Assembly: GCA_019112945.1 (NCBI GenBank)
Contig: DXIJ01000034.1
Location: 1-39,223 of the forward strand
Origin: Candidatus Monoglobus merdigallinarum
Lineage (GTDB): Bacteria; Bacillota; Clostridia; Monoglobales; Monoglobaceae
Direction of reading: 5' to 3'
Length of the DNA: 39,223 nucleotides
This document shows positions 9,247 to 12,427 of this stretch, one piece after another (the stretch's first letter is position 1; each line of letters opens with the position of its first letter). The notes beneath the pieces were generated by a model that did no database searches, had not been told where the DNA came from, and saw nothing but the letters and a program-made list of their open reading frames with translations. The position numbers were made by a program, and so were the translations under genes.

Positions 9247-10680
9247 ATGGCTAAAGCACTGACTAACGACATGACCGCAGGAAATCCGGTCAGACATATA
9301 ATCAAATTTACTGTCCCTCTGCTTATAGGTAATATTTTCCAGGTACTGTATAACATGGTCGATACTATTATAGTCGGAAGAACCATAAGCGTGGAAGCTC
9401 TGGCGGCGGTCGGAGCCGCGGGCGCGATAATGTTTTTGATTGTAGGCTTTGCTCAGGGGTTTACAAACGGACTGTCTATCATTGTCGCGCAGAGATTCGG
9501 TGCAAACGATATGCCCGGAGTGCGCAGGAGCGTTGGCATGGGAATATATCTGTCTGTTGCGGCATCTATAGTCCTGACGCTCATCAGTATGCTCTCAGCA
9601 CGCACCCTGCTTGAACTTATGAGTACTCCAGATAACATAATCGACGATGCTTACAGCTACATAATCGTAATTTACGCAGGCATTGTGTTCCAGATATTTT
9701 ACAACTACATCTCATGCGTTATACGTGCGCTCGGCGACAGCAAAACGCCGCTTTATTTTCTGCTGATATCGTGTGTAATCAATATAGTGCTTGATCTTGT
9801 GTTCATCATCAACTTCCATATGGGCGTTGCCGGCGCAGGTCTTGCGACAATTATCGCACAGGCGGTCTCGGGAATTCTGTGCCTTTTGTATGTCGCAAAA
9901 AAGTTCCCCCAGCTTCATCTTAAAAAAGAAGATTTCAAGTGGGAGAATAAGTTTGCGCTCAAGCATCTCGGGCTTGCAGTGCCGATGGCTTTCCAAATGT
10001 CCGTTACCGCTATCGGCGTTATGGTAGTGCAGGCGGTGCTCAACTCGTTTGGCTCAACCGTTATAGCCGGTTACACTGCCGCCAACAAGATTGAACAGCT
10101 GATATCGCAGCCTCAGATCTCATTCGGGATGGCCATGGCGACATATGTCGGACAGAATTATGGAGCAATGAACGAAAAACGCATCAAAGAGGGCGTGAGC
10201 AAATGTGCACTGATAGTACTGGGACTGACGCTGGTTATTGTCCTGATAGTTCTGATATTTTCAAGGCCTATAGCAAGCGTATTTCTGGACGCCGGGACCG
10301 ATCCGGCGCTCAGGGACAACGTTATATTCTACACATCCACATACTTTAAGGCCGCTGCCGTTTTCTACTTTGCGCTTGCTCTTTTGTTCGTATACCGAAA
10401 CAGCCTGCAGGACATGGGCAACTCAGGAATAGTTCTGTGCGGAAGCGCAGCAGAGCTTATCGCACGAATTGTGCTGTCTCTGCTCATGGCTCGGACACTG
10501 ACCTACAACTATGGTGAGTTCTACGGATACTTGGGGGTATGTATCGCCGGACCGATCGCATGGCTGTCAGCCTGCACGCTGTTTATGGTTTCATACTTCA
10601 AAAACGTGCACAAGCTGCCCGAAATATTTAAAAAACGCAGTGAATTTAAAGAGCTGGACGCTCGGGCAAGCATAGAATAA
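9247..10680 (+). CDS. MATE family efflux transporter
   Basis: 477 aa; [34 protein letters not shown]; repeated MATE halves. Confidence 0.95.
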
Positions 10681-11852: not shown

Positions 11853-12029
11853 TATCTAAATCTATACTTACAACACTTTGTTAAAGATGTTAATCCAAAC
11901 CTCACCAGGCTTGTGAGCCGCAAAAAGAACAGCTTTACACAGACCGACGTTGAAGCGGATGAATATATGGAAGAGCTGAAAATAATAGTTGACTTTAAAG
12001 AGAAATTAAGATATAATAAAAGCAGATAA
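11853..12029 (+). pseudogene. Possible C-terminal remnant of an unidentified protein (open frame without a start codon)
   Basis: YLNLYLQHFVKDVNPNLTRLVSRKKNSFTQTDVEADEYMEELKIIVDFKEKLRYNKSR*; coding-like composition; preceded by TGA at 11850-11852. Confidence 0.35.
11989..12017 (+). promoter_or_regulatory. Sigma-A-like promoter reading toward the small hydrophobic ORF (candidate antitoxin RNA promoter)
   Basis: TTGACT(11989-11994)-N17-TATAAT(12012-12017). Confidence 0.7.
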
Positions 12030-12118
12030 AAGGTAACCCGAATTATCGGTTATAGCCAAAGAATGAAAATATTTTAATATAGCCGTTGCTTTGACCGAGA
12101 GACGGCTATATTGCTTTT
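12024..12118 (+). ncRNA. Predicted ~95-nt antisense/antitoxin RNA
   Basis: Begins about 7 nt after the 12012-12017 -10 box; 5' hairpin TAACCCGA-atta-TCGGTTA region; ends at palindrome 12076-12112 followed by TTGCTTTT. Ends are predicted, not observed. Confidence 0.5.
12076..12112. terminator. Palindrome shared by the two convergent transcripts
   Basis: AATATAGCCGT-ttgctttgaccgaga-region-ACGGCTATATT, perfect 11-bp stem; TTGCTTTT follows on +; weaker U-tract on -. Confidence 0.6.
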
Positions 12119-12180
12119 ATGGATACTATTATGAAGAAAATCACAATAGCAACAATTACTTTAAGTATTGTATTCCACAT
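12106..12180 (-). CDS. 24-aa hydrophobic peptide, candidate type I toxin or small membrane protein
   Basis: MWNTILKVIVAIVIFFIIVSIKAI*; SD AAGGAGG at 12194-12188, 7 nt from ATG; upstream TTGACT-N17-TATAAT promoter; single TM-like segment. Confidence 0.6.
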   Translation of the reverse strand: MWNTILKVIVAIVIFFIIVSIKAI

Positions 12181-12264
12181 AGGCAATCCTCCTTATCCAT
12201 ATAAGCATTCACCTATATACAGGAGGCTAACCGTCCTTCAATTACCTGTTTATCTGCTTAGATA

Positions 12265-12293
12265 ATTATATATTATTCGATGACTTTAGTCAA
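12265..12293 (-). promoter_or_regulatory. Sigma-A-like promoter for the 24-aa ORF
   Basis: minus strand TTGACT(12293-12288)-N17-TATAAT(12270-12265). Confidence 0.75.
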
Positions 12294-12401
12294 TTTACAA
12301 TTCTCTTACAACGTAGGAACGTAGGGATTAGGGAATAGGAATTAGGACGTGGTGTGTTAGTTCCCGACTATCTTTTTATCACAGCATTGGAACAATCGCA
12401 A

Positions 12402-12427
12402 AAAGGCACGCTGCGCAGCGTGCCTTT
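12402..12427 (-). terminator. Intrinsic terminator downstream of radC
   Basis: perfect palindrome AAAGGCACGCTGCGCAGCGTGCCTTT followed by TTT on the minus strand. Confidence 0.8.

Follow-up and report, generated by a model that had tools for sequence, protein, structure and literature searches.

To our knowledge, most type I toxin-antitoxin modules described so far in Clostridia come from C. difficile. The closest described systems are BsrG/SR4, TxpA/RatA and BsrE/SR5, which are Bacillus prophage modules linked to the Hol_Tox family (PF16935). In bsrG/SR4, the terminator loop of SR4 makes the first contact with a hairpin of bsrG, after which pairing extends into helix P1 (3' part); RNase III cuts behind the stop codon, and the antitoxin promoter is 6-10 fold stronger (PMC7430163, PMC6562991). 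A U-turn-assisted loop contact and an inactive mRNA pool have been described for par of pAD1 (PMC7472228), and the full-length toxin mRNAs of hok/Sok and aapA/IsoA are closed by a 5'-3' long-distance interaction (PMC6733600). The C. difficile modules (CD2517.1-RCd8, CD0956.2-RCd10 and others) encode toxins of 34-59 amino acids (aa) with lysine-rich tails, and have SigB promoters and a CRISPR association (PMC6563280).

We analysed a window of 39,223 nt from Candidatus Monoglobus merdigallinarum, in which a preliminary description had proposed a toxin mRNA on the - strand, an antisense RNA on the + strand overlapping its 3' end, and a short membrane peptide. Comparison with paralogues and relatives supported this layout, and the locus is likely (probability about 0.8) to be a type I toxin-antitoxin module that resembles BsrG/SR4 in its mode of action. 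Beyond the preliminary description, we report below a 5'-3' clamp in the mRNA, a distribution across the class, a BsrG/SR4-like architecture and a probable prophage origin. With these Bacillus modules the locus shares convergent, 3'-overlapping genes, a hidden Shine-Dalgarno sequence, a 5'-3' helix in the mRNA (computed for bsrG), prophage association, a stronger antitoxin promoter at the family level and an antitoxin terminator loop as the probable point of first contact. In the control bsrG, which was taken from phage SPbeta and whose peptide matches Hol_Tox, we found the same 5'-3' clamp in the mRNA (-53.1 kcal/mol, z = -6.1), and counterpart RNA elements for each described bsrG/SR4 contact were present in the family studied here. 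In contrast, the peptides have 19-27 aa here and 30-59 aa in the BsrG group, the antitoxin has about 95 nt instead of 163-220 nt, and the family was found mostly in Clostridia. Hol_Tox did not match the window peptide or ten family peptides, while the BsrG control matched it at 1.8e-8, and the covariance model R2 (see below) had no match in the SPbeta bsrG locus (SR4; L218); R2 did match one Hol_Tox locus (L207). With no match of the peptide to any proven toxin profile and none of R2 to SR4, the locus is tied to BsrG by its architecture; it appears to work like BsrG/SR4 but, judged by the sequences of peptide and antitoxin, falls outside that family.

Convergent promoters, a shared terminator hairpin, a Shine-Dalgarno hairpin, a U-turn-type loop and a predicted pool of inactive mRNA also link the locus to Fst/par of pAD1. 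However, the direct repeats of par give RNA I and RNA II complementary 5' parts, whereas the repeats are inverted here, so that the two 5' ends are alike and each mRNA would pair with itself; in addition, the PXXXG(C) motif of Fst is absent from the window peptide and YUNR is enriched on the antitoxin side here. The C. difficile modules resemble the locus in their class, their convergent overlapping genes, a short membrane peptide and their association with prophages, but their toxins, set apart here by their description, differ from the window peptide with its 24 aa and one lysine near the end. The 5'-3' closure of the toxin mRNA is shared with hok/Sok and aapA/IsoA. In aapA, the clamp hides the Shine-Dalgarno sequence and 3' trimming activates the mRNA, whereas a local hairpin is predicted to hide it here, and the antitoxin, unlike those of hok and aapA, would target the 3' end of the mRNA.

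Elements of the window locus

The elements are listed below with their window positions and the evidence for each. A1 denotes an alignment of 35 promoter-plus-antitoxin sequences, the source of covariance model R1, and A2 a class-wide alignment of 52 sequences, the source of the wider model R2.

12265-12293, - strand: putative toxin promoter, TTGACT (12293-12288), 17-nt spacer, TATAAT (12270-12265); promoter-like site, with TTGACA-N17-TATAAT at the same place in the paralogues
12025-12258, - strand: predicted mRNA of the toxin, with approximate ends; deduced from the promoter and from the second hairpin, which CCTTTTATCTGCTTTT follows; z = -6.8 for the fold
12225-12257, - strand: GCAGATAAACAGGTAATTGAAGGACGGTTAGCC, 5' strand of the clamp; paired in the fold with the 3' end of the mRNA (z about -6), with covariation across the family
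12221-12226, - strand: anti-Shine-Dalgarno CCTCCT; pairs with 12188-12194 in the predicted fold
12188-12194, - strand: Shine-Dalgarno AAGGAGG; 7 nt before ATG, kept in homologues
12106-12180, - strand: putative toxin ORF, 24-aa hydrophobic peptide MWNTILKVIVAIVIFFIIVSIKAI; ORF call and type-A coding constraint
12076-12112, both strands: shared hairpin, predicted antitoxin terminator (+) and post-ORF recognition hairpin of the mRNA (-); compensatory changes, YUNR loop
12032-12057, both strands: second hairpin, predicted toxin mRNA terminator (-) and antitoxin 5' hairpin (+), including the 3' strand of clamp segment b; predicted folds, kept in A1 and A2
12022-12033, both strands: GCAGATAAAAGG, near the antitoxin 5' end (+) and, as the mRNA 3' end, pairing with 12257-12246 (-); inverted repeat I2, folds
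12024-12118, + strand: predicted antitoxin RNA of about 95 nt, ends approximate; R2 covariance match at 11989-12115, 88.4 bits
11989-12017, + strand: putative antitoxin promoter, TTGACT-N17-TATAAT; promoter-like site kept in relatives
11922-11981, + strand: decayed 3' end of an SPP1-type phage holin, KKNSFTQTDVEADEYMEELK; adjoins the antitoxin promoter, resembles a holin in the same genome

Both promoters, the Shine-Dalgarno sequence, the 24-codon ORF and the palindrome were found, exact to the base, where the preliminary description had placed them. The two promoters scored 11/12, and five other promoter-like sites of the region scored 9-10. The palindrome arms, AATATAGCCGT (12076-12086) and ACGGCTATATT (12102-12112), match perfectly over 11 bp, with the stop codon inside. 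When compared with dinucleotide shuffles, the RNA folds of the window copy had z-scores of -6.8 on the toxin strand and -3.9 on the + strand; in the predicted mRNA fold the Shine-Dalgarno sequence paired with the upstream CCTCCT and the 5' end paired with the 3' end. These z-scores, together with conservation in two paralogues and in relatives, confirmed that the window elements exceed chance. The most likely end of the toxin mRNA is the second hairpin (12032-12057), not the palindrome.

The locus had been described as hidden in an ORF-less gap. The locus proved to be real, but the gap was not featureless, as it contained the decayed holin end and, at about 12309-12427, an interspersed repeat (GTAGGAACGTAGGGATTAGGGAATAGG...). 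Dozens of partial copies of this repeat were present in the same genome, and in the C80 and C135 paralogues, too, it lies directly next to the toxin promoter. The possibility that the + promoter was an accident of a coding remnant was considered, the flanking ORF being the decayed end of the holin; it was rejected because the promoter is kept in relatives beside other flanks.

The window peptide, with 24 aa and one hydrophobic stretch, probably spans the membrane; it has a single lysine near its end and no P or G. The peptides of the 85 catalogued modules of the family had 19-27 aa and one hydrophobic span, usually ending near K, with a mean hydropathy of 1.2-2.4 (modules were selected above 1.2). 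Variability in 23 type-A ORFs was 0.235, 0.092 and 0.315 at codon positions 1, 2 and 3, and their pN/pS was 0.50, as would be expected for a constrained hydrophobic peptide. The preliminary description had recognised no named toxin family, in agreement with our searches of Pfam, NCBIfam and PHROGs, where no family matched the window peptide above cut-off; weak matches to DUF6486 (0.014), smalltalk (0.017), DUF2973 and PsbI were below the curated cut-offs and were taken as chance. Rfam gave no match for the module in the window or in 12 loci. The toxin and antitoxin families are absent from these four collections, and we found no description of this module family in the literature (T1TAdb was outside the search).

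Relatives, prophage context and distribution

Two full paralogues were found in the same genome (C80:264-559 and C135:21933-22239), with 71-72% DNA identity, as well as further copies that include a partial one (C135:21065-21186). Both full copies had TTGACA-N17-TATAAT on both sides, an ORF with 67% identity, a Shine-Dalgarno hairpin with different stem letters and a post-ORF hairpin with compensating changes. The preliminary description had named a lack of conservation of the peptide, promoters and palindrome as evidence against a toxin-antitoxin locus; all of them were kept in the paralogues and relatives, and so was the Shine-Dalgarno hairpin. The peptide and covariance searches that it had proposed both recovered relatives. 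With the 24-aa peptide as query these were found in 12 of 38 genomes of the taxonomic family, including 11 of the 12 genomes of the genus Monoglobus (source genome counted), and a pattern scan of named genomes assigned the group to Monoglobus and to Candidatus Roslinia caecavium. Loci recovered through their ends alone contained the peptides MKYALRVLLLTIIFLIVFTMKAI, MQTEYIISFMILLLLIIVTIKK and MEYVYIIIFMIVFITLIESIKK between the same RNA elements; the MQTEYIISFMILLLLIIVTIKK locus adjoins integrase-like genes, and that of MEYVYIIIFMIVFITLIESIKK is a tandem array in the complete genome G004, which we take to be M. pectinilyticus.

Because of their shortness and variability, type I toxins escape protein searches; R1 and R2 avoid this difficulty by finding modules through their RNA. 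Both models gave rough E-values and include the promoter, so that promoter conservation among their matches is partly ascertained; with this in mind, R1 matched 29 of the 38 family genomes (up to 19 matches per genome) and 82 of 391 sampled Clostridia genomes, and R2 matched 116 of the 391 (about 30%), in 70 of 222 genera, and 36 of 398 genomes in a sample of the phylum. Some of the phylum-level R2 matches, near E 1e-4, had no clear peptide (e.g. L205 and L210) and were left out of the module count. Where public records were examined, no annotated gene lay under a match. A compact and fully recognisable frame is present in about 30% of the sampled Clostridia genomes, with up to 19 copies each, in prophages and beside integrase-like genes.

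The holin remnant of the window (11922-11981) resembled another holin frame of the source genome, with 56% identity (E 2e-4). In a Monoglobus prophage with tail and baseplate genes (L074), the module adjoins an intact SPP1-type holin (PF04688, 6.6e-29), whose end is positioned like that of the window remnant with respect to the antitoxin promoter (72 vs 61 nt from the shared codon); an amidase-like gene, named from a reading of its sequence with no profile match, lies on the other side of the module. Because the holin remnant lies by the antitoxin promoter and the same order is found in an intact prophage, the window module is probably the remains of a prophage. Further copies were found on prophage and viral contigs (IMG/VR) and beside integrase-like genes; the IMG/VR pattern scan recovered modules, but several of its 16 matches were unrelated chance matches. 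INPHARED phage DNA, searched with two modules, gave no match. The same Monoglobus prophage (L074) also carried, at 10397-10658, a second toxin-antitoxin-like unit of different sequence (MAEVIVVFYIMLLTVIILKK...).

The tandem array of M. pectinilyticus (L078, G004:C1:2361700-2364200) consisted of five modules with nearly identical peptides; in some of them, a repeat of about 65 bp (TCAGCAAGCTTGCTTGCGG...) separates the promoter from the start of the RNA. A sequence labelled as an M. pectinilyticus plasmid (NZ_OY725742.1, 150935-157103; L188) had no genes annotated under its modules. Its array is also found on the M. pectinilyticus chromosome, near 2.36 Mb; the plasmid label, which may be wrong, was not relied on.

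The RNA frame and the mRNA clamp

Throughout the 85 modules the peptide varied and the RNA frame was constant, with convergent promoters, a Shine-Dalgarno hairpin, a post-ORF hairpin that coincides with the antitoxin terminator, and 5'-3' pairing. TTGAC and TATAATA were invariant in the 35 sequences of A1, in which 9 of 13 predicted pairs (5' hairpin included) had changes on both sides, and in A2 all pairs (10/10) were compensatory. The antitoxin promoter had the full 12/12 consensus in nearly all of the 85 modules; the toxin promoter varied and was often weaker, both being 11/12 in the window copy. The Shine-Dalgarno sequence was hidden across the family, with an unpaired value of 0.19 vs 0.36 with shuffled leaders. 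The YUNR motif was present in 80 of 84 antitoxin terminator loops, against 55.7 expected from shuffles, and the U-turn was not enriched on the toxin strand (45 vs 43.6).

In 84 modules, the duplex between the 5' and 3' ends of the mRNA had a mean energy of -39.4 kcal/mol, compared with -28.7 kcal/mol for all swapped partners, and a z-score of -4.4 against shuffled 3' ends. At least 10 expected clamp pairs were found in 63 of the 64 modules that were folded whole. The clamp sequences differed widely between clades (GGTTAGCC/GGCTAACC, GGTTGTCA/TGACAACC, GGTTATGCC/GGCATAACC and GGCTCGCC/GGCGAGCC), and exchanging the partners between two peptide types of M. pectinilyticus had a cost of about 10 kcal/mol (native clamp -47.0, swapped -36.7 kcal/mol). 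The two ends were about 63% identical in RNA nt 1-15, and 26-32% identical, which is the chance level, in the promoter spacer and -35 region. All of these tests treated the sequences as unrelated. The clamp covaries and is confined to transcribed sequence. As the antitoxin spans the 3' end of the mRNA, its 5' end resembles the 5' end of the mRNA.

The clamp was also considered as the cause of Shine-Dalgarno occlusion, which folding did not support: the predicted occlusion was the same with or without the clamp, a local hairpin hiding the Shine-Dalgarno sequence in every predicted form, so that folding alone does not account for an effect of the clamp on translation. In several Monoglobus relatives (L049-L055, L059, L060 and L062) the antitoxin had an extra 5' hairpin and the mRNA had two successive Shine-Dalgarno-like hairpins, of which only the second adjoins the ORF; the doubled hairpin is possibly a decoy or a ribosome standby site.

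Proposed mode of action and alternative explanations

Transcription, toxicity and silencing, as we infer them, and RNase III cutting, taken by analogy, would combine as follows. The - strand mRNA would be translated into a 24-aa, single-span membrane peptide, an excess of which is expected to depolarise or disrupt the membrane. Translation would be held back twice, by the local hairpin that hides the Shine-Dalgarno sequence and by closure of the finished mRNA through 5'-3' pairing. The + promoter, which equals the toxin promoter in strength in the window copy and usually exceeds it in the family, would produce the antisense RNA of about 95 nt. The loop of its terminator, with the U-turn motif, would first touch the matching hairpin downstream of the toxin ORF, after which pairing would extend to the clamp's 3' strand. 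There the 5' end of the antitoxin, as a near copy, would displace the mRNA's own 5' end, and the resulting duplex is expected to be cut by RNase III.

More tentatively, one RNA chassis with exchangeable toxin cassettes might be shared by Clostridia and other Bacillota, perhaps also by the BsrG group; its antitoxin would be a copy of the mRNA 5' end and would silence by strand exchange on the clamp. In such a scheme, the mRNA would keep itself inert and then be handed to the antitoxin, a mode of control of which the literature covered gives no explicit account for any type I system. Our findings also make it testable whether modules with a common mRNA clamp and antitoxin form a single superfamily with exchangeable toxins.

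Several genomes carry many copies of the module, which would also suit a regulated, non-toxic small membrane protein (e.g. one acting in membrane stress or modulating a transporter) whose level is only tuned by the antisense RNA. We consider this improbable, because modules exchange peptide sequences freely but retain the silencing frame, because the prophage and integrase contexts, the tandem arrays and the loss or decay of copies fit addiction modules better, and because the same architecture controls a lytic toxin in bsrG. A role as a phage lysis accessory, in which a holin-like peptide under antisense control would time lysis instead of forming an addiction module, seems slightly less probable still. 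Several observations agree with such a role: holin and amidase genes flank the module in the Monoglobus prophage, a holin remnant flanks the window copy, and the related Pfam family is named holin-like toxin. Against it, most of the copies examined adjoin no recognised lysis genes, genomes have up to 19 copies and tandem arrays, and the prophage already has a holin and an amidase.

The two ends of the module form an inverted repeat, and its copies are numerous and lie at scattered sites, as they would if the module were a small, non-autonomous mobile element, with terminal inverted repeats as the source of the matching ends and with an incidental peptide. However, the repeat stops at the transcription starts, the 26-32% identity of the -35 region and spacer being that of chance, the ORF is under coding constraint and the post-ORF hairpin covaries, all of which makes this explanation very improbable. 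Matching confined to the transcribed part argues against transposon ends, and terminal repeats of the transposon type were rejected for this reason.

For the type I module, the most speculative step is its role, which may be to stabilise mobile elements, with copies later persisting as chromosomal relics. The clamp of the window copy was weaker than those of its paralogues (16.5 vs about 29 expected pairs), and for this reason the copy may be eroding and the module in the window decaying. Broken or recombined copies, in which only the peptide end and the terminator were left, were observed in L072 (5962 and 6672, - strand) and in L077, which suggests frequent decay of these modules.
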